From: Darksidea phi
Taxonomy: Eukaryota > Ascomycota > Dothideomycetes > Pleosporales > Lentitheciaceae
Direction: 5' to 3'
Assembly (NCBI GenBank): GCA_030770425.1
Contig: JASJFT010000232.1
Span: 1-64,000 of the forward strand
Length of the DNA: 64,000 nucleotides
In this document: positions 28,658-62,497 of the stretch, one piece after another
Layout: each line of letters starts with the position of its first letter
Numbering within the stretch: position 1 is the stretch's first letter
Made by a program: the position numbers and the translations under genes
The notes under the pieces: generated by a model
The model's database searches: none
Told to the model about the DNA's origin: nothing
The model's input: only the letters and a program-made list of their open reading frames with translations

Positions 28658-31600
28658 TCAAGTCTCGTTACTCAAGTAATCTGTCAGCAACGGATTCGCT
28701 TGGTCCGGCCATTGGTACCTTCCGAGCCGAGCCTTCTTCTCTACATGGTTGTCTCTGTACTTGTCATCCACCTCCGACTCGTGCCGCTTCTTGCGTTGCA
28801 CGCGGGAAGCAACATGCGAGCGAGGCGTGCTGACGCCGGATTCGCCAGCTGCTGCAAGCGACGTGTCGGTCAAAGCAGGCGGAGAGTCGCCATCAGCTTC
28901 CTCGACCACGATGGGGCGAGCTCGTTCATGTTCAAGACCCTTGATGTGCAGGACCTGCAGTTGCCGGTTTGCCGTGTCGTTCTCGGCACTTTGACGTAGA
29001 GTTTCTTGAATGGCATCCTGCTCCACCTCTAATCGCTGCTGCTCCTCCTCTTGCTGCTTGGTCCACTCTTCGTGCTGCTCACGATAGCTGGAGTCCATAC
29101 CTTCCACCCACTTTTTCCTTTCATCGTCTTCCTCAGCTGCCTCAATGCACCCAGAGCACTTGATGTAGAAACCCCCGGCCATGGGTCCTTCACCTAGCAT
29201 CTCGAATTCGGGCAGGTTAAAGCCGACGAGCTCTTCTCGATTATTAAGACAATCATCGCAGAAACCACGCGGGCACCAACGGCATCGATATATAAGGCCG
29301 CCGGCGTCAGTAGTACTCTTGCCACATTGGTAGCAGGTATGCTGAGGACAAAAGAAGCCGCTGAAACCCTTGACCTTGGCCTGATAATCCGGTTCCAAAC
29401 AATCGAAGTGGTAGGCTCTGGGGCAACTCTTGCATTCGACCAAGTGGCCTGTGTCCGGTCCATCGAAACAAGCGACACAGTGCTCTTCATGGTTGAACTC
29501 ACGGCGTTTGTCACGTTGAGACTCCGCCAAGCGAGGGTCTTTTCCTGCCAAGGTGGGGACAGCCTCCCAGTCGGCACAGTTCAAAGACTCTTTGCTAATC
29601 GCGAACCCATCGATCATGACGGTAGTGTTCTTACCCTTTCTTCTATCTTCGCGAGTGACCGAGGTGGGTAGGAGATTGCTAGTGGAGGTCTCGGCTGTGT
29701 CGAGTTGGCGCTGGTAGCGCTTTCCATCAAACACTGCGCATTCGACACGCTCCATCACTGACAGCCACTTCTCTTCGTCGACCTCGGTGCTAGCCACATC
29801 GGCGTTGACGTGCGGATCGGCAGGCTTGTCACGGCACTTCTGCATCATTGTATCCAGATCCCATGACAACATCTCCGTTACGTCTATCTCTGGATGAGAC
29901 AGAGTTTGAGCCCCACGACGTACCAGAGTTTTGAGCTGATTAGTATTCAATTCCGGCATCTCGTCGGCGAGAGAGGGGCGTCCTCTAGTGTTGACAGCGC
30001 TCTCCCCGTGAACGCTCCTCATTGACTCCGTGATCTTGGCTGAAAGGTACAACTTCTTTCGGATTCGGCCCATCATTTGCTCTTCGATAGTGCCTTGTGT
30101 GCAAAGTTTGTAGATGGTCACCTTCTTTGTCTGTCCGATTCGGTGGGCCCGGGCTTCGGCCTGTAGAGTGACTTGGGGATTCCAGTCCTCGTCCAAAAGG
30201 ATAACATCTTCCGCGGTAGTCAAGTTAATGCCTAAGCCACCTGTTCGGGTTGACAAAAGCATGATCTTGTACTCGGATTTCAGGTCGTTAAACAACCGCA
30301 TATCAAGGTTCCTCCGTGCCCGAGACGTGCCCCCGTCCAAGCGAAGAAATTTGAAATCTCGGCCAAAGTTGCTGATAAGTGAGAGCATATCTTCACAGCA
30401 GTCGAGCGTTTGTGTGAAGCCAGAGAAAATCAACACCTTCTTTCCTTGGGTGAAGATGCTGCTCCTGAGCAGCTTTTCAAGAAGGATGAACTTGCCTGAC
30501 GCTCGGATGACATGTTGACCAACATAATAAGGTTCAGGGATAGTGCCGGGCAGAAGGTACGGATGCGAACAGCACTTACGCAACTGCATTACGAGATTCA
30601 TCAGCCTCCGCCAGGCCGAAGTGACCCTGGTGTCTCCGGCGCTCTGTTCCTTCTCGATAGCCTGCCGCGTAATCTGTGCAGTCTCTTCCCATCCGTCTTG
30701 CTTTTCTTGGCTGTTGGTTGCGTCCAATCTCTCCATTCGGGCCAACAATTCGGCATCTTGCTTGTCTTTGCCAATGGCGGCCTGCTCCTTGCTCTTCCCA
30801 TCGACGAAGAGATCATCAAGCATGTTGTCATCCACACGGGTAAGAAGACGTGTGTACCAAAAGCGTTGCATCGGTGTCAGGGGAACGTACAGAAGGACTT
30901 CTTCTTTAGGTGGGAGCCCTAGGTCAACACCAGCACTGTCCTTCATTCGCCGCAGCATGATTAGTTCAAGCAACCGCCGGGCGTCGTCTAGGGTTTGCCG
31001 ATTCACCTGACCGCGATTGAGATCGAACGACTCCTTGAATAGGGCTTGTGTGTTGTCGGTGAACACATCAGGGTAGAGCCAGGCCAGCAGTGCCCACATC
31101 TCCAAAAGGTTGTTTTGAAGGGGTGTACCGGTCAGGATGAGACGGTATTCGGAGGCAATGGTCCTCAACGCAGTTGAGATCTGCGAAACACTGCTCTTGA
31201 TCTTATGACCTTCATCAAGAACGACATATCGCCAGACGAAAGAGTGCTTGAACCAGCTCTGTTCCGAGTGGAAGGTGTCATATGTGGTTACTATAATCTT
31301 GTAAGAATCAGAGCCCGCCTCGGTCGGTAGTTTCGAGACCTTGAGGCCGGCTTTCTTGGAGGCTTTGCGGTCTTTGGATTGCAGAGTCTCGTTGCCGTAC
31401 TGGTCTTCAATATTGAGCGCGAGTTTCCTGAGACGATCGCGCTCATTGGGTGAGCCGTGGAATGCAAGGACCCTGAGTCCGGGCACCCACTTTTGTGCTT
31501 CATGTACCCACGAACTAAGCACGCCGAGCGGGCAGACGACGAGATAGGGGCGCAATTCCTCGGACGTTATGCCGGATTTTTGATCTTGTTCTTCCAAGTA

Positions 31601-32467
31601 CTGGAAGAGTGAAAGGGTTTGTAATGTTTTTCCAAGACCCATCTCGTCTCCAAGGATGCCAGAGAAGCCGTTGTTGTGCAGGTGAACCAGAAAAGACAGA
31701 CCGTCAAGCTGGTACGGCTTCATAGTTGCGGTGACGCCTTTTGGCTGCTCTTGTAGGCGCTCGTACTTGATAGTCGAACTGGGCTGGTCGATTTTCAACA
31801 GTTTGGAGACATGGTTGTGCTCGGGAAGCAACGGCAAGAAACAATCCTTGTTGGCAATGAGGAAATTGTTCGCCTTTGCTTTAGTCTTCCTTGCGATGTC
31901 GTCTCGCAGGCGGGCCCGGGCGGTGTCGAGCTTGCGGGGCGGGGCCTTGCGCTTGGTCGCGCAGGGAGGCTTTTGCGGAACGGTGTCTGACCCCAAGATG
32001 TCGCTGGTGCGGTTGCGGGCGCTCCGTCGCGGGGCCGTCCTCTCTTGCTTGCGGGCCTCCATCTTCAACTCGCCTAGATGGTCTTGTGAGTAGGCTTTCC
32101 GGACAGCGCGGACTGGTCTGGCAAGCCCGTCGTCACTGGAGGGATCGCTGGACCCGTCAGAGGCCTCGCTTGAGTCTTCGCGCCTGCCGTCGTTGCAGAT
32201 GGTAGGGGAGGTGGCGCTTGAGGCGTTGGACAGGTCGGAGACGGCGTGGTTAAGTTTGGACCGTTGCCGCGGGGTGGGTTTGCTCTCGGCATGCGCCTGA
32301 CGTGAATCGACGGTGAAGGACGACGATATGCGTCGGGCCTTGGTTGCCGACGTGGCCGAACTCTGCGAGCCAAATTGCTGCAATAGTTCCTCGAGGCGAC
32401 CTCCTCGTCGCTTTATGGGCGTGATCGGAAGCGGCGAGCCCAGTGGAATACGCGGCAGGTCGCCCAT
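28658..32467 (-). CDS. SNF2-family chromatin remodeller with C-terminal PHD fingers
   Basis: A single exon of 1269 residues. A low-complexity, Ser/Arg-rich N-terminus (about 1-190) precedes the two-lobed ATPase: GDEMGLGKT at 273-281 (Walker A), LDEGHKIKS with DEGH at 418-421 (Walker B), LTGTPLQNNLLEMWALLAWL at 445-464, then the second lobe with LLSTRTGGLGINLT and RAHRIGQTKKV near 737-783. Residues 997-1075 form PHD/zinc-binding clusters (CVACFDGPDTGHLVECKSC, then CYQCGKS, CRWCPRGFCDDC) with a further CSGC at 1104-1107. A Glu/Gln-rich coiled coil follows (about 1120-1170). It should couple ATP hydrolysis to nucleosome movement in the nucleus, with the PHD module reading histone tails. ISWI-like in the ATPase, but I see no clear HAND-SANT-SLIDE. 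It is divergent from the Clr2-like gene. Confidence 0.93.
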   Translation of the reverse strand: MGDLPRIPLGSPLPITPIKRRGGRLEELLQQFGSQSSATSATKARRISSSFTVDSRQAHAESKPTPRQRSKLNHAVSDLSNASSATSPTICNDGRREDSSEASDGSSDPSSDDGLARPVRAVRKAYSQDHLGELKMEARKQERTAPRRSARNRTSDILGSDTVPQKPPCATKRKAPPRKLDTARARLRDDIARKTKAKANNFLIANKDCFLPLLPEHNHVSKLLKIDQPSSTIKYERLQEQPKGVTATMKPYQLDGLSFLVHLHNNGFSGILGDEMGLGKTLQTLSLFQYLEEQDQKSGITSEELRPYLVVCPLGVLSSWVHEAQKWVPGLRVLAFHGSPNERDRLRKLALNIEDQYGNETLQSKDRKASKKAGLKVSKLPTEAGSDSYKIIVTTYDTFHSEQSWFKHSFVWRYVVLDEGHKIKSSVSQISTALRTIASEYRLILTGTPLQNNLLEMWALLAWLYPDVFTDNTQALFKESFDLNRGQVNRQTLDDARRLLELIMLRRMKDSAGVDLGLPPKEEVLLYVPLTPMQRFWYTRLLTRVDDNMLDDLFVDGKSKEQAAIGKDKQDAELLARMERLDATNSQEKQDGWEETAQITRQAIEKEQSAGDTRVTSAWRRLMNLVMQLRKCCSHPYLLPGTIPEPYYVGQHVIRASGKFILLEKLLRSSIFTQGKKVLIFSGFTQTLDCCEDMLSLISNFGRDFKFLRLDGGTSRARRNLDMRLFNDLKSEYKIMLLSTRTGGLGINLTTAEDVILLDEDWNPQVTLQAEARAHRIGQTKKVTIYKLCTQGTIEEQMMGRIRKKLYLSAKITESMRSVHGESAVNTRGRPSLADEMPELNTNQLKTLVRRGAQTLSHPEIDVTEMLSWDLDTMMQKCRDKPADPHVNADVASTEVDEEKWLSVMERVECAVFDGKRYQRQLDTAETSTSNLLPTSVTREDRRKGKNTTVMIDGFAISKESLNCADWEAVPTLAGKDPRLAESQRDKRREFNHEEHCVACFDGPDTGHLVECKSCPRAYHFDCLEPDYQAKVKGFSGFFCPQHTCYQCGKSTTDAGGLIYRCRWCPRGFCDDCLNNREELVGFNLPEFEMLGEGPMAGGFYIKCSGCIEAAEEDDERKKWVEGMDSSYREQHEEWTKQQEEEQQRLEVEQDAIQETLRQSAENDTANRQLQVLHIKGLEHERARPIVVEEADGDSPPALTDTSLAAAGESGVSTPRSHVASRVQRKKRHESEVDDKYRDNHVEKKARLGRYQWPDQANPLLTDYLSNET

Positions 32468-32792
32468 GGTGTCGGTGTCGTGACCCGAGACGTGGCGGAG
32501 CTATGGAGGTAAGTGGGGGTGACGATGAGAGCGCATCGCGGAGGCTATCAACGCGTTGTGCTGAGCGGTGAAGGTGAAGGCGTCGTCCTGGTGGACGCGG
32601 TCCTGATGGACGCGACATCTTCAAGAACGTTCAATGGTTTGCAAAGTCGCGTTCGCTCTAGCGCCGGAGATTGGCCGCAAACGCCGACGCGCCTTGGGAC
32701 ATTCAACATTTGGGGTAGTAGGACATTTGAACAGTCATTACCAACCTCCAACCTCGCCACGCCCGCTCGCGTGCATCCACCGCGCGCCCACC
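32468..32792. promoter_or_regulatory. Bidirectional promoter, SNF2-PHD / Clr2-like
   Basis: Only 325 bp separate the two start codons (32467 minus and 32793 plus), so both genes must share control sequences here. An ORF extends upstream of the Clr2 start in frame (from 32634), but the ATG at 32793 has the better context (CCACCATGG). No TATA box is evident. Confidence 0.6.
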
Positions 32793-34766
32793 ATGGCCCA
32801 GCCGCTAACGCAGTTCTGGCCCATCTTCACCGGCAAGTCGGACGGGCAGGAGGTCGTCAACCAGAAAGGCGTCGTGCTGCGTAATGGACCCACGCAGGAA
32901 CAGCTCGACCGCACGCCCAACGAGCAGGGCCAGAGCGACTACTACCGCCTGATCGAGAAGGATGAGCCTAAGCACATGGACTGGCGCAAGAAGCTGGGCG
33001 GCATGCTGCTGCGCGAAATCGGCGGCAAAGCGCACGAAGGTGGGCCTCTCACGGCGCATTCGAGATGCAGGCTGACAAGCGCAGACAAGTGGACGCAGTG
33101 CATCCTCTGGGATTTCCCCGATGGCTATAGGCTGTACGAGCACATCAAGTCAAAGGCCAATGGCGAGGCGAAGGCGGTCAAAAACCACTCGGGCGGCGGC
33201 CATGACAGACAAGACGCCTATCTGTATGGCTACCCCAAGGGGCCGAGGAAGCGCTTCAGAAGCCCCATCGAGTTCTTCCCGCACCTGCTGTGGCTCTCCA
33301 CCGACGAGACGAGCGACTACCAGAACTGCGCCTGCCGTATCTGCTCGCCAATGCAGCTGGACGCGGAGAAGCCTGCGCCGGCAGTCAAGCCAGAGCTCAA
33401 GCCGGACGGCCAGACATCCGTCGTCGGCCGTAATCCAGCCGTGCAGGTTCCACTGCGGCGTCCCAGCGCAGGCACACCAACGACTCAGAGTCCTAGCATC
33501 AAAGCTGCTGCCCCCAGTTCCGCCCCGAACCCAGCCCAGATCAGGGTTCCGCCGCGGTTGGAGCCCTCGCCCCTTCCACAACCCCGCAACATTGACCAGC
33601 AAGTCGACAGCCAGTACGGCAAGTTCGTCGCCCGCACCGGCGAGGTGGTGTGGTTCTTCAGACCGTCGACGTCAGCCTGGGGCTTGGGTCTTGTGGTTCG
33701 GCGTTGGGTGCCCAAGGACAAGCCCGCCGACCGTTGTTATTATATACAGCCTCTCTCGCATCCCTTCAGTGCGCCTGTCCAAGAACTCGTCACCTCCGAC
33801 CAGAACCTAAAGCCTTGGCTCGCATGGTCTGCGCCTTCATGCACGTACGCTTACCTGCAGCAGAATCCAACCCTCCGCTACGAGCAGGTCGATTGGAATG
33901 CTCTACTCTCCGGTCAATTTGGCGATGGCGTTGCTGATGTGGACGCGTCCATCCTCGCAGCAAAAGCCATTGACACCACCTACACCCTATTTGAGTGCCT
34001 GAAGACGACTACACACATGGGCGTGGAAGAGCGGCATTATAACGGCATATACCTTGGTGCCGAGAAAATCTGGAACGGCGAGCCGGTGCGTCTGCGTATG
34101 GCCATCGGGACCGATGTCTTGGTCATTAACAGCATCATTGAAAAAGTCTATCCAGGACCAACGAACCAAACCAATGCCGGATCCTCGAAGATCGAATTGC
34201 GAGGAGACGTATACTCATATGACACCCTCCCAGCGCCCAATCCCAGTGCTCCTCCACAAGCTCCATCTAGCAACAACATTCCACTTCGCATGCGCGAAGA
34301 TTTGCGTTGGCGCAACCAGACGCTCATCCCAGCTACACGCACACTTGCTTACTGGAAACTCATGAGCGCAAATGTGTCCATCAGTCTAGAAGATATCAAA
34401 GGCCGCTGGTACGAGACAAGCATACTCTTCGTCGAGTTCTTCACCAAGGCAGTCAAGAGCAACGAAGGTGGCAACGGCGTCTGGATGAATTCCCGAGGCG
34501 ACGCTACGGGCATAGGCAAAGCAGCTGGTACAATGCAGCTTAGTCGTGTTGCAGCTTTCGGCAACGCGGTCCCCAAAACCTTACACCTCACCGAAGGTCT
34601 TGAAGTGCCGGACGAGCAGGGCAAACCCTCCACCTCCGCAATGCCAGGAATGGAGCTGGGCATAGGTGCCGGGCCCAGTGATGGGGCTTTTGCGCTTGAC
34701 GATTTTATGAATTTCGATGGCACAGAGGACGGAGGGATGACGTTTGGCCAAGACTTTGCGTTTTGA
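32793..34766 (+). CDS. Clr2-like transcription-silencing protein
   Basis: An open frame of 657 codons from the ATG at 32793 (CCACCATGG). A 45-nt segment, 33040-33084, has intron features (GTGGGC donor, GCTGAC branch, CGCAG acceptor). It is in frame and stop-free, so the unspliced frame is also open; splicing joins KAHE to DKWTQCILWDFPDGY and gives 642 residues. DAYLYGYPKGPRKRFRSPIEFFPHLLWL with CACRICSP is the signature of the Clr2 transcriptional-silencing domain. In fission yeast Clr2 is part of the SHREC complex for heterochromatin silencing. A Pro/Ser-rich linker (about 190-270) and an acidic, Gly-rich C-terminus follow. It is paired head-to-head with a SNF2 remodeller, the other enzyme type in SHREC. 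Confidence 0.87.
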   Translation: MAQPLTQFWPIFTGKSDGQEVVNQKGVVLRNGPTQEQLDRTPNEQGQSDYYRLIEKDEPKHMDWRKKLGGMLLREIGGKAHEGGPLTAHSRCRLTSADKWTQCILWDFPDGYRLYEHIKSKANGEAKAVKNHSGGGHDRQDAYLYGYPKGPRKRFRSPIEFFPHLLWLSTDETSDYQNCACRICSPMQLDAEKPAPAVKPELKPDGQTSVVGRNPAVQVPLRRPSAGTPTTQSPSIKAAAPSSAPNPAQIRVPPRLEPSPLPQPRNIDQQVDSQYGKFVARTGEVVWFFRPSTSAWGLGLVVRRWVPKDKPADRCYYIQPLSHPFSAPVQELVTSDQNLKPWLAWSAPSCTYAYLQQNPTLRYEQVDWNALLSGQFGDGVADVDASILAAKAIDTTYTLFECLKTTTHMGVEERHYNGIYLGAEKIWNGEPVRLRMAIGTDVLVINSIIEKVYPGPTNQTNAGSSKIELRGDVYSYDTLPAPNPSAPPQAPSSNNIPLRMREDLRWRNQTLIPATRTLAYWKLMSANVSISLEDIKGRWYETSILFVEFFTKAVKSNEGGNGVWMNSRGDATGIGKAAGTMQLSRVAAFGNAVPKTLHLTEGLEVPDEQGKPSTSAMPGMELGIGAGPSDGAFALDDFMNFDGTEDGGMTFGQDFAF

Positions 34767-44700: not shown

Positions 44701-44964
44701 GAAGAATTTGAAAACCTCGCTGTGCCGTCACATGTCAAGTACTGATGTCATCCGAAGCGACTCGAGTCGACTCATTCTCCTCCGCCCCACCATCGGCTTT
44801 TAACACATCCGAATCGGCCTGGCGCACAGCCCACATCAGGATCCACTCAAATGCGGCCTCATTACTGATTCTAGCCTTGCATAGCACTGTTTCTGATTTC
44901 TTAATCGAAATATATATTAAATATGAGGGCCTAAGTGTAAAATGTCCGACAATAACTTTCTGAG
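41761..44964. other. Gene-poor stretch, no supported gene
   Basis: ORFs up to 190 codons (41788-42360, plus) overlap others on both strands and have no recognisable domain or splice logic. Nothing else was recognised before the tRNA gene. Confidence 0.4.
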
Positions 44965-45001
44965 GGTTTTGTAGTGTAGTGGTAATCACTCCGGATTTTG
45001 A

Positions 45002-45013
45002 TTTCAGTCGACC
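45002..45013 (+). other. Canonical tRNA anticodon-loop intron
   Basis: Twelve nucleotides between positions 37 and 38 of the tRNA-Gln, the only site at which the eukaryotic tRNA-splicing endonuclease normally cuts nuclear tRNAs. Removing it closes a 5-bp anticodon stem and 7-nt loop. Confidence 0.85.
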
Positions 45014-45028
45014 TTCCGGCAACCCCGG

Positions 45029-45080
45029 GTATGTCTCCAATATACCATACGGTTGGAATCAGAATACTAACGTACAGAAG
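45029..45080 (+). other. Spliceosomal-type intron in the tRNA T-arm
   Basis: Fifty-two nt starting GTATGT (45029-45034), with a consensus branch site TACTAAC (45065-45071) and ending GAAG, so GT...AG. The ends match the T-stem/T-loop junction exactly, and deletion restores CCCGG-TTCGAAC-CCGGG. An earlier CAG at 45075-45077 would leave three extra bases (AAG). Length and signals are those of an ordinary fungal pre-mRNA intron, not of a tRNA intron. Confidence 0.75.
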
Positions 45081-45113
45081 TTCGAACCCGGGCAAGACCT
45101 TGAGTGAATTATC

Positions 45114-45121
45114 TTTTTTTT
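45114..45121 (+). terminator. Pol III terminator of tRNA-Gln
   Basis: Eight consecutive T starting 15 nt after the last tRNA base, a standard RNA polymerase III stop signal. It supports this being, or having recently been, an active Pol III gene. Confidence 0.85.
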
Positions 45122-45430: not shown

Positions 45431-46900
45431 CTACATTGTGCTTGCTGCATTTGCCTGCTTGATGGCAAACCACATGCTAAGGGCAGCCGATCCACCCATT
45501 AAAGCAACTGCAAACAGGACCATCGCGAAAGGCGTTACCGGCGGACGCGGCTTCTTCACCATGTCCCGAATTTCCGACTCAAGTGTTTCCGCCATCTTCT
45601 CCTTCGAGAAATCAGATATGACCCTCTCCCTACCCCACTTGCCCATTTCCTTGAGCCTCTGGTCGCCATCTCCATCCTCCAATGCTATGCGCATGACCTC
45701 TGTCCATTCCTGTACCTTACTCGCGTCCCTTAGCCACCCAGTCTGGCCGCTGACGACGGTTTCTGTCGGTCCACCTTCGTTTGCTGCTAATACGGGTGTG
45801 CCTGCCAACATGGCCTCGAGCGGGACAATACCGAAGTGCTCGTTACGTGGGGTATAGACCAGGAGCCGCGATGTGTGGAGAAGGGTGATTTTGAAGGCAT
45901 TCGGCACGGAGTGGAGGAAGAGGACCGAGATGTAGTCCGGGATGCGCTGTGCAGTAATGACGGTCGTTGCGGTCGCGTGCTTGAGCTTTAAAGAGTCGGC
46001 GAGCTCGCAAAGTTCGGCGTATGTGGAAAGGTTCTCTGCTACCCGTGGATCGTAGCCGCCTGCTATAACAAGCCTCGTGTCTTTGCGCTCGTTCGCTGAC
46101 AGCCCTGCGTATGCTTTGATTGCAAGCGCAACGTCTTTCTTCTTTTCGAACCGATTGATGCTCAGCAACACCTTCTTCTTTTCCCACAGTGGCTTAATTT
46201 CTTCAACCCCATCTTGGACCTTGGTGTCTACGCACGGGTACACGACGCCGGGCTTTCGGTGCCTCAAGCTAGGGAAAGCGTCGGCGAACACGCCCTTCGT
46301 GAAGTTGCTATTGACAACGATGGTGTCGCTGCAGCCCGTACTCCAGCTCTCCAGCCAATCAAACGGACCCCTATATAGAGTCTTGAGTATGCCTCCCTTC
46401 TTCACTAGCAGCTTATCGGGAAAGTGGCAGTAAAACATTATTCGCACGTTCGACTGGAGCATGCGGAGGAGGGGAATGCCGGCACTGAGCTGGTCGACAA
46501 AAAACGAGGTAGGCTCGAGATTCTGCAGTTCGCCAGTGAATAGGGCTATTTGCAGTATCAGGTGCACCTGACGAAGAATGGCGCAGAGAATGGCGAAGCG
46601 GCCAAGTACTGTCGGCGGCACGATGGAGTTTCCGCGTACTCGCACATCGAGGGTTCCTTTGTGCCCGGGCAAGTCTCAGCTACCTTTGGCCTAATAAGCG
46701 GCGGGGGTTGCAGACACAGCAGGGTGCTTACCGTCGCGGGCCTCGTCGAAGCAGTGGCGGGCATCGCAATGTGACGTGAAGATGGTGACCTTGTGGCCGC
46801 GGTTCTGCAGCCCGACTGCGGCGTCAATCACCAGGCGCTCGGCCCCGCCGATGCCCAGATCCGGATGGAAGAAGACAACGTGCTGCTTCTTGTCTGTCAT
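45431..46900 (-). CDS. ALG2: ALG2 mannosyltransferase
   Basis: Two exons (46732-46900 and 45431-46656) with a 75-nt intron (GTAAGC...CAAAG) give 464 residues. It adds the second and third mannoses (alpha-1,3 then alpha-1,6) from GDP-mannose to dolichol-linked Man1GlcNAc2 on the cytosolic face of the ER, an early step of N-glycosylation. Features: [19 protein letters not shown] near the start (donor fold of GT family 4), [33 protein letters not shown], and the EX7E motif in [22 protein letters not shown]-terminal hydrophobic helix ([21 protein letters not shown]) should anchor it to the ER. Length is typical. The start at 46900 is fixed by family alignment. It is head-to-head with VPS15, and its 3' end faces the tRNA-Gln. 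Confidence 0.95.
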
Positions 46901-47263
46901 GGCGGTTTGTGTCTGAATGCAGCCTCGCATACGTGTTGCGCAGTTGACGCCGGCGAGACGCGGCTTTTCCTCTTGCGGTAAGGTAGCGTGGACCCTGGAC
47001 GCAGTCCCCTGGTGCACGTGAAAGATGACCTCGACCACTCTGCCAGCACTGAGCCACATGCACACCTGCCATGCATGTGACCTCCAACCTTTAACCATCG
47101 CAATATCGCCCATCGCCGACCTCTTTCTAGAACCCCAATCGATACGGAACATGATAGAGTGACCCCGGAACCCCCAGTCGTAAGACAGATCGCTCTCAAC
47201 ATGCGGCCTGAGAGGCTCCAGCGCCGCGCTACACCTTGACATCCCGAATCATCAAACAACACC
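46901..47263. promoter_or_regulatory. Bidirectional promoter, ALG2 / VPS15
   Basis: A 363-bp intergenic space between two divergent start codons. It must hold promoters and 5' UTRs of both genes. No obvious TATA box or repeated operator was seen. Confidence 0.6.
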
Positions 47264-50200
47264 ATGGGCCAAGGTTTCTCAGCCACGACGCTCTCGGCCG
47301 GCTCGGCCACTATCGAGGTGTCCGAGCTGGAGGACCTTCGTCCCGAGAAGTCTCTCGGGACAGCCCGGTTCATGAAATCGTTGCGAGCGAGGCATAAAGA
47401 TGGCCTGGTCGTCGCCCGGGTGGTGATGAAGCCCTTTGCAGATTTCAAGCTCGAGGTTTACGTCAAACGCCTACTAGAAGAACGGCGGTTGCTTGCCGAT
47501 GTCCCGAACGCCCTGGCCTACCATCGCATCTTCGAAACTCCCGTCGGGGGTTATCTGGTCAGGCAGTACATCCACAGCTCCTTGTACGATCGGTTGAGTA
47601 CCCGTCCATTTCTCGAGGAAATAGAGAAGAAGTGGCTCTCGTTTCAGCTCCTTTGCGCGGTGCGAGATTGCCACGCCCGCAATATTTACCATGGTGACAT
47701 CAAGACTGAAAACGTTCTTGTCACGTCATGGAACTGGCTCTATCTCGCAGACTTCTCCGCCTCCTACAAACCCGCCTATCTACCGGAGGACAATCCAGCC
47801 GACTTCTCCTTCTACTTCGACATGTCCGGGCGGCGAACCTGCTACTTAGCCCCTGAACGCTTCCTGGGCCCCGGATCTCCACCGGAAAGCGAGGACGTCG
47901 TAACTTGGGCAATGGACATCTTTAGCGTAGGGTGTGTCATTGCAGAACTTTTCCTGGAGTCCTCCATATTCTCGCTCAGTCAACTATTTAGGTACCGGCA
48001 AGGCGAGTACGACCCCGCTTTATCGCAGTTGAGCAAGATCCAGGACAAAGACGTCCGGGAACTCATCACGCACATGATTCAAGTCGATCCCAACTCACGC
48101 ATGTCTGCCGAAGATTACCTTGAGCATTGGCGGGGCAAAGTTTTTCCCCACTACTTCTACGGGTTCCTCCAGCAGTACATGCACTCAATTACAGACCCGT
48201 CTTCTGGTCGTAAGCCAGTCACCACTGAGATCGAGCATCTGGGTGAGCCGGACGAACGCATAGAGCAGATATATGGCGATTTCGACAAGATCTCGCATCT
48301 CCTGTCGAATGGAGAAGGCAACGAGCCAGGGAAATCGCTACATGCGCCGCCAAAACCAAACTCCCGGCTGTTCCCCCTCTACATTGACATCCCCAATTAT
48401 CAGCACCGGGCGTCTCCCACACCAAGCCTCTCCGTAGATGACGGCAACCTCATCTTCCTCACTATTGTCGTTTCTTGCTTACGCGGCACTGCTAGGGCAT
48501 CGGCTCGTCTCCGAGGCCTAGAACTGCTTCTGGCATTTGCAGAGAGGTTGACCGATGAGGCCAAACTCGACCGTGTTGTTCCGTACGTTGCAACATTGCT
48601 GACCGACAAATCAGAGCAAGTCAAGGTTGGGGCTTTACGTACGGTCACTCAGATCCTCGCCATGGTCCACGTTGTTTCGCCTATCAACGCATACGTTTTT
48701 CCAGAGTATATCCTACCTCGGCTGGAGCCGTACCTTCTAGACTCGTCCCCAACGGCTACCTCGCTCGTTCGTATGCACTATGCTTTGTGTATTGGACCAC
48801 TTGCTACCACTGCGGCCCGATATCTTGACATTATCCAGGCCCTCCGTGCTGAGGGTACTTTGCCGGCCACAGATCCTGAGACTGAAGATGACATGACATC
48901 GTCTGCGCATCGGAACCAGTTCGATTCGGATCGGCAAAACCTTCTTGAAGCGTTCGAAAAACATACCAAGGCCCTACTCACAGATTCCGATGCCTCTGTG
49001 CGTCGCGCCATGCTCACATCCGTCTCAGACCTGTGCGTCTTCTTCGGGAGCCCGCGAGCTAACGATGTGGTGTTGAGTCATTTGAATACGTACCTCAACG
49101 ACCCGGACTGGGAGCTCAAATGCGATTTCTTCGAAGCTATTATTGCCGTTGCCGTCTTCGTTGGTGGGGCTAGTCTGGAAGGCTATATCTTGCCATTAAT
49201 GGTACAGGCACTGACCGACCCGGAGGAGTGTGTTGTGGAAAAAGTCATCAGAGCCTTCTCGTCAATAGCAGAGCTCGGTCTGTTCCAGAGATCCAAAACA
49301 TGGGAATTGGTGGATATTGTTGCCAGGCTTACGATGCATCCGAACATCTGGATTCGAGAAGCAGCTGCTCAGTTCATCTCAGCTGCCTCGAAGTACCTCT
49401 CCACGGCGGACACCTATAGCATCATGATCAATCTAATTAGACCATACCTCAAAGTTATACCATCTGAGCTCACCGAATTGCGACTACTCGACTCGCTAAA
49501 GAAGCCTTTACCAAGGCTAGTCATGGATATGGCATTCAACTGGGCAATGCAAACACAGAAGGGGCATTTCTGGGCGCCTGCAAGGCAGCAACAAACATTT
49601 ACATTTGGATCATCAGAGGACACGCTACCAACAATATCTGGTCGAGAGCTTGACCAAAAAGTCCTCCAACGGCTACCAAAGAACGAAGAGGACGAGCTGT
49701 GGGTCCGAAAGCTGCGAAATGCCGGAATGACATTGGAGGACGACTTCAAGCTTGTTGCGCTACGCGAGTTCGTGTGGAGGGTAGTCCGTCGCCGACGATC
49801 GGATGGTTCGGCTTCAACTCCTTCAAAATTTAACAATATAGTTGCTCTGAAGGATCTTGGCATCAAACCGCTCACAGTGCTATTTGAGAACAATGCACGT
49901 AATACGGTAGAGGAGGCGCGGAAGTCCGAACCACCGAACGACAGCTATCAACCAAAGACAATTAGAGACGCATTACTAGATGCGTCCACATCCGAACTTG
50001 ACGGGCGAGCTTCATGGAGAGTCTCACATATCGACAGTCAAGCGGACCGTCTAGCACGTGAGGAGACTGGTCATCGAGTATCTATTCCAAATCGGCCGAA
50101 GCTTGCATCGTCACCTAGCGATCTCCGCTCCGGTCCTGACTCGCCTGCATCTGATACTACCGACCCCCGCCGAAACTCGCTTCAGGTGCCTAGAGGATCA

Positions 50201-51946
50201 CCAAGCACTCAGTCGCCCATCGGTTCCCTAGCTAGAGGTGACCCTACACAATCACTTCGCCACCGCAACAGCGCATTGAACCTCCTAAACAGAGGAGATA
50301 AGGCACATGCTGAGATTGGAACCACCTCAGCAAACGCGTTGGGCAAAGTCGACGGTGCAGCTGCGCGAGAAGTTTCTCGGACACGTCAGCTACCATCACT
50401 CGCGGCGGAGCAACGCGATAGGAGTCCGTCTCGCGTACGCTTCCGCGATGCCCACAACTACACAGGTAATGATCCTGCGGTACTGAAGCTACTAGACTCG
50501 ATGCTTTTGGAGAGGTTCCCTTCCGGCCAAATGGAGTTCGGCCCTCGCATACAACCAACCATTCGGCCGCAGCCAATTAAACATAAAGACAGCCACCATT
50601 CACCGACAGGCACACCTTGGAGGCCGGAAGGCACCCTTGTAGCCACCTTTAGCGAACACACAGCTGCTGTGAACAGGATTCTGGTGGCTCCCGACCAGAG
50701 TTTTTTTATAACTGGATCTGACGATGGCTCTGTCAAAATCTGGGATACTTCGCGGCTAGAGCGCAATGTGAGCCGACGTTCGCGACAAACATATAGGCTC
50801 AGCGAAGAAGTTAGAGTTACAAGCTTAGTTTTCGTTGGGCAGACTTTTTCTTTTGTGGCCACAGGCAGTGATGGCAGCATACATGTTGTCCGGATGGACT
50901 ATTACGAGAGTAACGACGGCAACAGGAGGTTTGGTAGGCCCAGACTTCTTCGTGAGTATCAACTCTCGGATAAAGATTACGCGCTGTGGTCGGAACACTA
51001 CAGTGAGGACAACAAGTCGGTCCTTGTTTTAGCCACCAACACGTCTAAGATCATTGCGCTCGATCTGCGGACTATGACCGAGCTTTACACGCTGCAAAAT
51101 CCTCTCAATCACGGCACTCCGACTTGCTTCTGTGTAGATAGGAAGGCACACTGGCTGTTACTGGGAACATCCCATGGTGTTTTAGACCTGTGGGATCTTC
51201 GCTTTGGGCTCCGCTTGAAGGCATGGTTATTTCAAGGCGCTGCACCCATCCATAGACTTTACCTTCCCAAAATAAGGAATCCGCGACTGTACATTACGGG
51301 AGGAACGGGCCAAGGCGACGTTACAGTCTGGGACTTTACACGTCTCATCTGCAAAGAGGTGTATCGGACCGGAAATAGTAAAGATGTCGGATCAAAGAGT
51401 ACTACTCTCATCGACCTTGATGATGAAAAGTCCGGAGGTATGCTTGGCCGTTTCGCTGCAAACCTAGAACCAACGGCAAATTCCTCAGCCGACCGTAGCA
51501 TTCGCGCTCTCGTTGTGAATACTCAAGCCGCAGATGATAAACCCGACGCAAAATCCCACACTTTCCTCCTTACAACGGGGCCTGACTGGAAAGTCCGATA
51601 CTGGGACACGCATCGTCCAGACGCTTCCGTGGTGGTAAGTGGACTGGAAGCCGACGAATCGAAACCACAATACACAACTTCCCAGCCTAGTCCGGACACC
51701 ATTGTTGTGAGCGAGCGGCTGTTACAGCCTCAGAATCAGAGCTCGGTGGGAAGGGATGGCAAGAGCTCCGGTGGTTCGAAAAGGCCGGCACCGCCGAAAA
51801 GTGGGAGGTCTGCTTTGATCAGTTTACAGCAGCAGCATTTGTTAAAAAGCCATTTGGACACGATTATGGATGTAGCGCTTTTGGAGCAGCCGTATGGAAT
51901 GGTCATTAGCGCGGATCGGTCGGGTGTTATTTACATGTTTATGTAG
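47264..51946 (+). CDS. VPS15: VPS15 regulatory kinase of the class III PI3-kinase complex
   Basis: One exon of 1560 residues. VPS15 (human PIK3R4/p150) scaffolds Vps34 with Vps30/Beclin in autophagy and endosomal sorting. The N-terminus MGQGFS is a myristoylation site for membrane attachment. The kinase domain (about 25-310) has HGDIKTEN at 143-150, with DFS at 163-165 where active kinases have DFG, and PEDNPADF, all typical of this family. HEAT-type helical repeats fill about 400-760, a low-complexity Ser/Pro-rich linker about 920-1060, and WD40 repeats about 1120-1560 (SDDGSVKIWD, VLDLWDLRFG, GQGDVTVWDF, DWKVRYWDTH). The length matches fungal orthologues. The gene is intron-free although its neighbours have introns. 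Confidence 0.97.
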   Translation: MGQGFSATTLSAGSATIEVSELEDLRPEKSLGTARFMKSLRARHKDGLVVARVVMKPFADFKLEVYVKRLLEERRLLADVPNALAYHRIFETPVGGYLVRQYIHSSLYDRLSTRPFLEEIEKKWLSFQLLCAVRDCHARNIYHGDIKTENVLVTSWNWLYLADFSASYKPAYLPEDNPADFSFYFDMSGRRTCYLAPERFLGPGSPPESEDVVTWAMDIFSVGCVIAELFLESSIFSLSQLFRYRQGEYDPALSQLSKIQDKDVRELITHMIQVDPNSRMSAEDYLEHWRGKVFPHYFYGFLQQYMHSITDPSSGRKPVTTEIEHLGEPDERIEQIYGDFDKISHLLSNGEGNEPGKSLHAPPKPNSRLFPLYIDIPNYQHRASPTPSLSVDDGNLIFLTIVVSCLRGTARASARLRGLELLLAFAERLTDEAKLDRVVPYVATLLTDKSEQVKVGALRTVTQILAMVHVVSPINAYVFPEYILPRLEPYLLDSSPTATSLVRMHYALCIGPLATTAARYLDIIQALRAEGTLPATDPETEDDMTSSAHRNQFDSDRQNLLEAFEKHTKALLTDSDASVRRAMLTSVSDLCVFFGSPRANDVVLSHLNTYLNDPDWELKCDFFEAIIAVAVFVGGASLEGYILPLMVQALTDPEECVVEKVIRAFSSIAELGLFQRSKTWELVDIVARLTMHPNIWIREAAAQFISAASKYLSTADTYSIMINLIRPYLKVIPSELTELRLLDSLKKPLPRLVMDMAFNWAMQTQKGHFWAPARQQQTFTFGSSEDTLPTISGRELDQKVLQRLPKNEEDELWVRKLRNAGMTLEDDFKLVALREFVWRVVRRRRSDGSASTPSKFNNIVALKDLGIKPLTVLFENNARNTVEEARKSEPPNDSYQPKTIRDALLDASTSELDGRASWRVSHIDSQADRLAREETGHRVSIPNRPKLASSPSDLRSGPDSPASDTTDPRRNSLQVPRGSPSTQSPIGSLARGDPTQSLRHRNSALNLLNRGDKAHAEIGTTSANALGKVDGAAAREVSRTRQLPSLAAEQRDRSPSRVRFRDAHNYTGNDPAVLKLLDSMLLERFPSGQMEFGPRIQPTIRPQPIKHKDSHHSPTGTPWRPEGTLVATFSEHTAAVNRILVAPDQSFFITGSDDGSVKIWDTSRLERNVSRRSRQTYRLSEEVRVTSLVFVGQTFSFVATGSDGSIHVVRMDYYESNDGNRRFGRPRLLREYQLSDKDYALWSEHYSEDNKSVLVLATNTSKIIALDLRTMTELYTLQNPLNHGTPTCFCVDRKAHWLLLGTSHGVLDLWDLRFGLRLKAWLFQGAAPIHRLYLPKIRNPRLYITGGTGQGDVTVWDFTRLICKEVYRTGNSKDVGSKSTTLIDLDDEKSGGMLGRFAANLEPTANSSADRSIRALVVNTQAADDKPDAKSHTFLLTTGPDWKVRYWDTHRPDASVVVSGLEADESKPQYTTSQPSPDTIVVSERLLQPQNQSSVGRDGKSSGGSKRPAPPKSGRSALISLQQQHLLKSHLDTIMDVALLEQPYGMVISADRSGVIYMFM

Positions 51947-60800: not shown

Positions 60801-61691
60801 GGCCAAATGTCAACTCGAGTAGATGCGATTACAGTTGTTCTAAAACAGGCTCAAAGGAGGCTGGGCTGGGCGGAGGAAATAGACAGTCGAGGATGGACCC
60901 GAAGTGACGTGTAACGGTGATATACTATTGGGCGGGGGTGGTTGGGGGGAGTAACGAATTGGAGACACGGAGATAGAGGGGGCGAGATATTGAAGAGGCA
61001 TAGCGGAGAAGGACCCGGTAGGTAGAGAGGAATCGAGATAAGGGGGACGGTCCGGTACCGTCTTGCGATGCATCGTGGTACTGTTGCACATGGTCGAGTA
61101 AGGCGCGAAGTCTGGATGGGGGAATCTTCATGACATCTCGCGCTTTCGGATTTCTCCCAAGCCATTGCGGGTCCGGGTACTGTACAGGCTAGTAGGAAGA
61201 GTGCAGACGAATTAATTCTGTACAGGATAAATGCGGGATTGGAAAAAGACTCGAGGGAGAGAGAAGGTAACAGGAGTAGGAAAAGGAAAATGGAACATTT
61301 TCATTCAGACGGCCGCACCCTACCACCTCGCAACTGTAGCTGCTGGAGCAAGGAAATACAATTTACCAAAATGCCACAAAGAAAGAGTCTAGACAGGTGA
61401 TGCCGGCGCGGAACCGTGGGCAAACAAAATCGGCCCAGCAAGGCAATGTTCGAAGCATCGTATCCGGGGTCGCGCCCAGCAACCGTAGATCCGTGTCAAC
61501 ACCGAGTCCCAAAAGCGAACCCAAAGAGTAGCCGAGAAAGGTAATTCGGTCTCATGCAGACCAAGGGAATTAACTGGCAGTACGTAAAGGTATCAAGAAG
61601 ACGCCAGTATGCGACCGCTCGTGCGGCGGCTCCGAACAGCGACAGGTATCTTCCTCCTCATTAAACGTGCATGTCTCCTCATCGCCCCCCT
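57814..61691. other. Gene-poor stretch, no supported gene
   Basis: Nearly 4 kb with ORFs no longer than 153 codons, overlapping on both strands and lacking recognisable domains. The right end (about 61200-61691) should be the RAS 3' UTR. A perfect hairpin at 60558-60587 is listed separately. Confidence 0.4.
60558..60587. repeat. Perfect 10-bp inverted repeat
   Basis: ACCCCGCAGC (60558-60567) and its exact complement GCTGCGGGGT (60578-60587) flank a 10-nt loop, TCACCCATTG. It is GC-rich and could form a stable hairpin or a dimeric protein-binding site. No T run follows, and the loop/right arm carry ATTGG (inverted CCAAT). Confidence 0.7.
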
Positions 61692-62497
61692 TTACATGAC
61701 CACACACCCGCAGCAGCCCTTCTTCTCGTGGTCCTCGTCCATGCCCGGCTTGGGCGAGCCGTTGGGGTGTAGGCCCGAGGGTGCGCCCGTGTATGATGAC
61801 ATCTCCTTGTTGTACCTGCGGATCTCCCGTACGATGTCGTAGAAGGCGTTGTCGACGTTGATGCGCGATTTCGCCGACGTCTCGATGAACTTGCAGCCGA
61901 ACTGCCGCGCCAGGTTCTGTCCCTCTGCGCAAAAGGGTTAGCATGCTAGGGATGGGCGGCGAGACACGGACGCACCTTGTGTCGACACCTGCCTCTCGCC
62001 ATCGAGATCGCACTTGTTGCCCACGACGATCATGGGGAAGTAGTCCTTGTCCTTGACCCGGAGAATCTGCTGCTGGAAGGTCATGATCTCCTCGAAGCTC
62101 TGGCGGTCGGTTATCGAGTAGACGAGCAGGAAGCCCTCGCCGGTCCGCATGTACTGCTCCCGCATGGCCGAGTACTCCTCCTGGCCGGCCGTGTCGAGCA
62201 CATCGAGCAGGGCAACCTCGTCGTCGATGACGCACTGCTTGCGGTACGAGTCTGTCCGTGTTACCCAATGTTCAGAGCACCGGCGCCGATGCGGGCGTCC
62301 GCGGCGACTCACCCTCAATTGTCGGGTCGTACTCGTCGACGAAGTGACTCTGGATGAGCTGGATGGTCAAGCACGACTTTCCCACGCCGCCGCCGCCGAC
62401 CACCACCAGCTTGTACTCTCGGAGGAACTGTGCGCGGGTTAGCGGGTCACGGGCGGGAGGGAGGGAGGTGGCGAGCAGCACGCACCTTTGAAGCCAT
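61692..62497 (-). CDS. RAS1: RAS small GTPase
   Basis: Four exons: 62486-62497, 62313-62427, 61976-62251 and 61692-61924. They give 211 residues; introns are 58, 61 and 51 nt. Ras is the GTP switch controlling growth and morphogenesis through cAMP and MAPK pathways. Features: [22 protein letters not shown], with the P-loop Gly pair at 17-18 (human Gly12/13), switch I YDPTIED, switch [11 protein letters not shown] with the catalytic Gln, NKCD and ETSAK for guanine specificity, and a C-terminal CVVM CaaX box for prenylation with a second Cys pair upstream for palmitoylation. No activating substitution is seen. The 12-bp first exon, four codons long, is easy to miss. The symbol follows common fungal naming; the paralogue number is uncertain. 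Confidence 0.95.

Follow-up and report, generated by a model that had tools for sequence, protein, structure and literature searches.

Spliceosomal introns are known from the structured non-coding RNAs of fungi. U6, a Pol III RNA that is also a component of the spliceosome, carries an mRNA-type intron in fungi; such introns in fungal U6 snRNA genes, inserted several times to go by title, were reportedly described by Tani and Ohshima in 1989 and by Canzler et al. in 2016, and spliceosomal introns in ascomycete rDNA are said to have been described by Bhattacharya and by Cubero, both in 2000. Published work also places spliceosomal introns in ascomycete rDNA (PMC11889510) and in fungal U3 snoRNA, U3 being called a Pol III gene there (PMC5832005).

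In eukaryotes, the tRNA endonuclease acts at position 37/38 and requires a mature tRNA body, and the human complex contacts the D-loop/T-loop elbow (PMC10539383, in excerpt). tRNA introns outside 37/38 have been described for the Guillardia theta nucleomorph, Cyanidioschyzon merolae and archaea, the T-arm included and several to a gene; the excerpts of these papers assign them to the splicing endonuclease, give their length in G. theta as 3-24 nt and make no mention of GT-branch-AG signals (PMC4090602, PMC3978253). The U6 and U3 introns of fungi and the ectopic tRNA introns of algae and nucleomorphs are the nearest known cases to the one described here. The initial annotation of this DNA knew of no described case, and we likewise came upon no account of nuclear tRNA genes that carry spliceosomal introns among the open-access matches listed, a scope outside which preprints and most subscription papers fall, such that an earlier report is possible.

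The window that we analyzed, a stretch of 64,000 nucleotides from Darksidea phi, contains a tRNA-Gln(UUG) gene with a 52-nt insert between T-stem and T-loop. We hold it very probable, judging by its sequence, that with this insert a working Pol III tRNA gene contains a spliceosomal intron of the ordinary U2 type, and that the gene is one of at least 15 of its kind. As in fungal U6, introns would have been inserted several times in short non-coding RNA; here, however, the host is a tRNA, many genes are involved, the B-box is split and a second splicing system would act on the same RNA. The U3 and rDNA introns also reside in structured non-coding RNAs of fungi, but these belong to other RNA classes and lack a second, tRNA-type splicing system. 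The ectopic introns of Guillardia, Cyanidioschyzon and archaea resemble the present inserts in position and differ in the assigned enzyme, size and signals noted above, whereas the canonical nuclear 37/38 introns co-occur with the inserts in 12 of the 15 genes and differ from them in position, length and signals.

The tRNA-Gln(UUG) gene of the window

The gene (44965-45100, forward strand, contig C149) scores 31.9 bits against Rfam RF00005 (cut-off 29), in an alignment where a 59-nt unaligned block separates the two T-stem strands. Direct reading of the sequence bore out the initial annotation, which had placed a 12-nt intron in the anticodon loop and a 52-nt insertion between T-stem and T-loop, the latter starting with GTATGT and holding TACTAAC 10 nt before its terminal AG (Table 1). 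The annotation had also stated that removing the insertion restores a canonical T-arm, and it does: without the 52 nt the arm reads CCCGG-TTCGAAC-CCGGG, with 5/5 pairs, compared with 1/5 in the contiguous DNA. When introns were allowed, ARAGORN found no tRNA in the unspliced gene and a tRNA-Gln(ttg) in the joined one. The junction proposed earlier, 45028 to 45081, is right provided that the T-loop has 7 nt; a nearer CAG (45075-45077), 7 nt past the branch A, would yield a 10-nt T-loop and could compete with the AAG. Folds of the unspliced and joined RNAs were uninformative (z of -1.43 for the unspliced gene), although the minimum-energy fold of the joined tRNA, which differs from the cloverleaf, counts against the reading favored here.

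Table 1. Features of the window and interrupted tRNA genes of the genome (C numbers denote contigs; positions of the form 53/54 are tRNA positions of the insert)
Feature	Position	Strand	Basis or remark
SNF2-like ORF	28658-32500	-	
Clr2-like ORF	32607-34766	+	
TATA-like stretch	44911..44920	+	~50 bp upstream of the tRNA-Gln gene
tRNA-Gln(UUG) exon 1, positions 1-37	44965..45001	+	Rfam RF00005; acceptor stem 7/7 pairs
Canonical 37/38 intron, 12 nt	45002..45013	+	excision leaves a CCGGA/TCCGG stem closed by a 7-nt anticodon loop
tRNA-Gln exon 2, position 38 to end of 5' T-stem strand	45014..45028	+	sequence reading, RF00005 alignment, ARAGORN
Spliceosomal-type GT-AG intron (putative) at 53/54, 52 nt	45029..45080	+	sequence signals, T-arm repair, shuffles
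5' splice site GTATGT	45029..45034	+	sequence
B-box-like GGTTGGAATCA within the intron	45051..45061	+	pattern match, 8/10 specified bases
Branch-site motif TACTAAC, branch A at 45070	45065..45071	+	sequence
3' splice site AAG	45078..45080	+	sequence; branch A to last G 10 nt
B-box-like AGTTCGAACCC spanning the 3' junction	45079..45089	+	pattern match, 8/10
tRNA-Gln exon 3, T-loop to discriminator base	45081..45100	+	RF00005, ARAGORN
Eight-T run, Pol III terminator-like	45114..45121	+	sequence; 14 bases downstream of the gene
ALG2-like mannosyltransferase	45434-47035	-	intron by eye
VPS15-like kinase ORF	47240-51946	+	
Gln-UUG, interrupted	C149, 53/54		window gene
Gln-CUG, interrupted	C335, 54/55		
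Glu-CUC, interrupted	C335 and C440, both 52/53		
Ala-AGC, interrupted	C79, 52/53; C132, 58/59		
Initiator Met, interrupted	C312, 54/55		L055
Arg-ACG, interrupted	C124, 45/46		L084
Lys-UUU, interrupted	C436, 28/29		
Pro-CGG, interrupted	C157, 58/59		
Pro-UGG, interrupted	C179, 58/59; C467, 53/54		
Gly-GCC, interrupted	C79, C290 and C437, all 60/61		

Interrupted tRNA genes in the genome

Searching the genome (51.35 Mb, 477 contigs) with the window gene as a DNA query gave a single other match, the tRNA-Gln(CUG) gene on C335, which carries a canonical intron and a T-arm insert of its own (GGT/GTAAGT...GCTAAT...CCAG/TCG, junctions marked by slashes). Weak tRNA matches and D-arm patterns brought the set to 15 nuclear tRNA genes on 13 contigs, each with a GT...YTRAY...AG insert of 49-55 nt. 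Counted from the stems, the inserts occupy seven positions and lie in the T-arm in 13 of the 15 genes; none is at 37/38, the sites being 28/29, 45/46 and 52/53 to 60/61. By reading, 12 genes have a canonical 37/38 intron alongside the insert, 10 of which ARAGORN also marked. Altogether, 53 nuclear tRNA genes were read, a non-random sample in which 15 are interrupted (one of them, Arg-ACG, decayed) and 38 uninterrupted; six D-arm pattern searches, which are blind to the T-arm, gave 13 interrupted among 26 nuclear genes, again a non-random sample. Left out of the 53 were mitochondrial tRNAs (C304, C417 and C382, by reading), genes with a short T-loop (C51, C119), a rearranged one (C29), repeat-borne ones (C187, C425, C158) and pattern matches that are not tRNAs.

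Scoring in the family search covered 63 of 1735 candidates, and intact genes that this search missed turned up later (e.g., Asp on C466 and C467); the D-arm patterns were aimed at the isoacceptors missing from it and see only D-arms that are alike. Patterns were controlled by the same pattern read backwards, and every tRNA was accepted only after its sequence had been read. For three patterns the backward control gave 15, 8 and 17 matches against 19, 6 and 15 for the pattern itself, so most of their matches are due to chance; the second of these, aimed at interrupted genes (6 matches vs 8 in the control), added only the Arg-ACG gene on C124. Controls of other searches gave 0 for the Gln 5' half, 0 vs 7 matches for Pro-UGG, 3 vs 6 for Lys-UUU, 2 vs 4 for the second Gln search and 0 vs 3 for Gly-GCC. 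A tRNA covariance model that tolerates T-arm inserts, built partly from these genes, was run over 85 sequence sources and produced 58 matches up to E 1: every one of the 15 interrupted genes, the uninterrupted genes apart from L087 (37 of 38), L027, L052, L054, L057, L059 and a weak match (L016:1216-1264) that was left out of the tRNA count. Collections not meant for fungi yielded no relatives: exact matching of the 5' half of the Gln gene gave 0 in viral contigs and 0 in genome contigs, and the joined Gly tRNA had no match among phages.

For several isoacceptors, every copy found is interrupted: Gln-UUG (1/1), Gln-CUG (1/1), Gly-GCC (3/3), Pro-UGG (2/2) and Lys-UUU (1/1). Allowing up to 3 mismatches over the first 32 bases of the Gln gene retrieved the 2 interrupted genes, a second pattern retrieved no further tRNA-Gln, and no uninterrupted nuclear tRNA-Gln was found; the number of tRNA-Gln(UUG) genes, raised earlier as a point to settle, stands at one nuclear copy, interrupted, in an incomplete census, the tRNA-Gln(UUG) on C417 being mitochondrial by reading. 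Similarly, pattern searches of the genome, also an incomplete census, found no uninterrupted Gly-GCC, Pro-UGG or Lys-UUU gene. The sole Pro-CGG gene found is interrupted and the sole Pro-AGG gene is not. Intact genes for Gln, Gly-GCC, Pro-UGG or Lys-UUU may have escaped the searches or lie in unassembled DNA; as found, these isoacceptors would depend on the spliceosome for their supply. The codons that need them are in use, as seen in the VPS15-like ORF of the window (24 CAA, 30 CAG, 28 GGC, 22 GGT, 33 AAA and 27 CCA).

All 15 inserts begin with a GTRNGY donor and end with CAG, TAG or, in the window gene only, AAG. YTRAY is present in 15/15 and the stricter CTRAY in 13/15 (TTAAC or TTGAC in the other two), and the distance from branch A to the last G is 9-12 nt throughout, with 10 nt in nine inserts. 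When the 15 inserts were shuffled base by base (n=20,000), no shuffle combined a donor, an acceptor and a branch motif at the 9-12 nt distance, and the branch-like motif alone occurred 901 times; when only the interiors were shuffled (n=20,000), YTRAY appeared at that distance 996 times and CTRAY 437 times. In all 15 genes, 9-12 nt separate the branch A from the AG that is compatible with the tRNA, and for the tRNA to be whole, nearer AGs would be skipped at +4 from the branch A (Gln-CUG, Ala on C79) and at +7 (window gene). To compare, candidate coding introns were collected from 326 kb of the same genome: with frames of at least 240 nt, CTRAY stood near the end of 14/83 GT-AG candidates vs 2/105 and 2/87 for control dinucleotides, with frames of 300 nt 8/44 vs 1/50 and 1/38, and with frames of 400 nt 3/14 vs 0/12 and 1/17. 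The 14 frame-joining CTRAY candidates, which are presumptive introns and some of which will be due to chance, measure 46-77 nt and have motifs like those of the tRNA inserts, which thus appear to share style and length with the coding introns of this genome.

The tRNA bodies around the inserts are largely whole. Acceptor stems have 7/7 pairs in 14 of the 15 genes (5/7 in Arg-ACG on C124), and the T-stem has 5/5 pairs in all 15 after insert removal; in the 13 T-arm genes, removal gives those 5/5 pairs with a 7-nt loop where the contiguous DNA offers 0-4/5, and the T-arms of Lys and Arg are whole regardless. Decay of the kind seen in tRNA pseudogenes is limited to the Arg-ACG gene, the sole tRNA-Arg(ACG) seen (a dedicated pattern found no further one in the genome), with its poor acceptor stem, a D stem broken by eye and a decayed 5' part. 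Once joined, 14/15 genes (again not Arg) are recognized as tRNAs by ARAGORN, three with a wrong isotype because the program misplaces the canonical intron. In their unspliced form, with introns allowed, it finds a tRNA in only three (Ala on C132, Met and Lys) and none in 12/15, and for this reason tRNAs that fungal annotations seem to lack may in fact have interrupted genes. Among the three Gly-GCC genes, the mature sequences are identical, with introns that have diverged outside the splice signals. Upon comparing six pairs of intron bodies with shuffles, Gly C290/C437 and Gln-UUG/Gln-CUG came just above the 95% level and four pairs below it; common descent is therefore plausible for the inserts of those two pairs and not shown for the other four.

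Proposed removal and origin of the inserts

Two explanations had been put forward for the window gene: a precursor processed by two splicing systems, or a mobile introner that inactivated one copy. The sequences favor the former, with 15 genes, seven positions, and both Gln and all three Gly-GCC genes found among them, and suggest that this fungus relies on its mRNA-splicing machinery for making tRNAs as well. In the pathway that we propose, Pol III would transcribe the window pre-tRNA, with its upstream TATA-like stretch and downstream T-run; the spliceosome would remove the T-arm intron via GTATGT, TACTAAC and AAG; the T-arm and elbow would then fold, and the tRNA endonuclease would finally excise the 12-nt 37/38 intron. 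We infer this order, spliceosome before endonuclease, because the human endonuclease contacts the D-loop/T-loop elbow.

That the interrupted genes are dead copies on which mRNA-type introns have landed, with unseen intact copies doing the work, strikes us as improbable: splice signals expected to be lost in dead genes are kept in 15/15, acceptor stem (7/7) and T-stem (5/5) are intact in 14/15, the three Gly genes combine one mature sequence with differing introns, and in an incomplete census Gln, Gly-GCC, Pro-UGG and Lys-UUU genes turned up in interrupted form only. On the other side, short D- and T-arm insertions in eukaryotic tRNA genes mostly hit a gene with many synonymous counterparts and are taken as a sign of pseudogenes (PMC4090602, in excerpt), insert-free Glu, initiator Met and Ala-AGC genes do exist here, and Arg-ACG is partly decayed. 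Alternatively, the tRNA endonuclease and ligase might remove the inserts as they do the ectopic introns of red algae, nucleomorphs and archaea; precedents are Cyanidioschyzon and the G. theta nucleomorph, with D- and T-arm introns of 3-24 nt in the latter (PMC4090602, PMC3978253, in excerpt). BHB pairing at the 15 junctions is at background (mean 3.67/10 vs 3.94 at other offsets; 0/15 reach 8); however, according to the same excerpts a defined BHB motif is missing from many of the introns in G. theta, so its absence alone neither excludes the endonuclease nor decides the matter. What we regard as decisive for the spliceosome are the GT, branch and AG signals with their spacing, present in 15/15 and without a role in the endonuclease pathway, which makes removal by the endonuclease highly improbable.

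A further reading, that the inserts form a mobile introner family, concerns their origin and is compatible with spliceosomal removal. Introner-like elements are present in Dothideomycetes, and the several positions and the presence or absence of inserts among paralogues fit repeated gain; introner-like elements in fungi are also the subject, by title, of work cited in PMC11889510 (in excerpt). Yet when the 15 inserts were compared with ~0.3 Mb of the genome at E 0.01, only self-matches and one 20-nt piece of tRNA-Thr emerged, and matches between different inserts extended over 8-13 bases only, mostly around the branch site. Of other copies of the 52-nt segment, which it had been suggested to look for, the ~0.3 Mb contained none, and genome-wide, the query with the entire window gene led to the two Gln genes only, in a search that skips very common words. 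Moreover, empty sites are at hand. The joined exons of both Glu genes are identical over the 3' half to the insert-free paralogue L076, those of both Ala-AGC genes likewise to L039, and those of initiator Met to L010 over all 72 nt; comparison of the joined genes with these paralogues revealed no target-site duplication at the Glu, Met and Ala sites, and therefore precise gain or loss (e.g., by reverse splicing) fits better than insertion of a target-duplicating element. We accordingly rate a mobile family as quite improbable, and an introner that silenced one copy, the second of the earlier explanations, finds no support, as the inserts match nothing in the ~0.3 Mb compared beyond themselves and the tRNA-Thr piece, and the incomplete census gave no uninterrupted Gln, Gly-GCC, Lys-UUU or Pro-UGG gene.

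Returning to spliceosomal introns in working genes, we lean toward a broader view, namely that in this fungus, and perhaps its lineage, the supply of tRNA-Gln, Gly(GCC), Pro(UGG) and Lys(UUU) has become spliceosome-dependent, most of these tRNAs also needing canonical splicing, and that introns in the T-arm or anticodon stem were gained repeatedly and left no target-site duplication, which is what reverse splicing into tRNA would predict. Should it hold that every gene for several essential tRNAs carries a spliceosomal intron, the separation of tRNA splicing from pre-mRNA splicing would break down and translation capacity would be tied to the latter. The spliceosome would, in addition, have to accept Pol III transcripts that are short and whose 3' exons measure ~12-20 nt, and the genome would document naturally how RNAs with a fixed structure gain introns, with empty sites next to occupied ones.

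Promoter elements and neighboring sequences

The TATA-like stretch and the T-run flanking the window gene may be outward signs of its transcription by Pol III. A loose TATA pattern occurs in the 60 bases upstream of all 12 interrupted genes with enough sequence, compared with 1081 of 5000 random 60-mers of the same genome, and by eye a TATA-like stretch precedes the three Gly genes too. The B-box is not whole in the DNA of 10 of the 13 T-arm genes, which might weaken their transcription. In the three 52/53 genes, the last intron G and the exon rebuild a perfect B-box (GGTTCGATTCC) directly after the intron; the 58/59 and 60/61 genes have a B-box of 7-9/10 bases left before the intron, the 53/54 genes one of 8/10 across the 3' junction, and Gln-CUG retains 7/10. 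A 20-base stretch of the Met intron agrees in 19 bases with the T-arm of tRNA-Thr(CGU) (L029), and this intron thereby carries a B-box-like sequence of its own (GTTCGATTCC). Such remaining, rebuilt or intron-borne B-boxes may explain why T-arm insertion is tolerated.

The ALG2 protein encoded beside the window tRNA gene shares 89% identity with its counterpart in Lentithecium fluviatile, and the best named relatives of this protein belong to Pleosporales. A Ras/Rab-like reading of the ORF at 61570-62271 found no match and was dropped.

Several other tRNA-like sequences came up in the searches. L052 (C187), L054 (C425) and L059 (C158) are three copies that are alike, in L052 and L054 also in their 3' flanks, and are probably a dispersed tRNA-derived repeat. 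A tRNA-Thr(UGU)-like gene (L027/L061, C51) and a Cys-like one (L049/L060, C119) each miss a few T-loop bases and are perhaps pseudogenes or products of inexact intron loss, and L057 (C29:73791-73885) is tRNA-like with an internal duplication around the T-arm.
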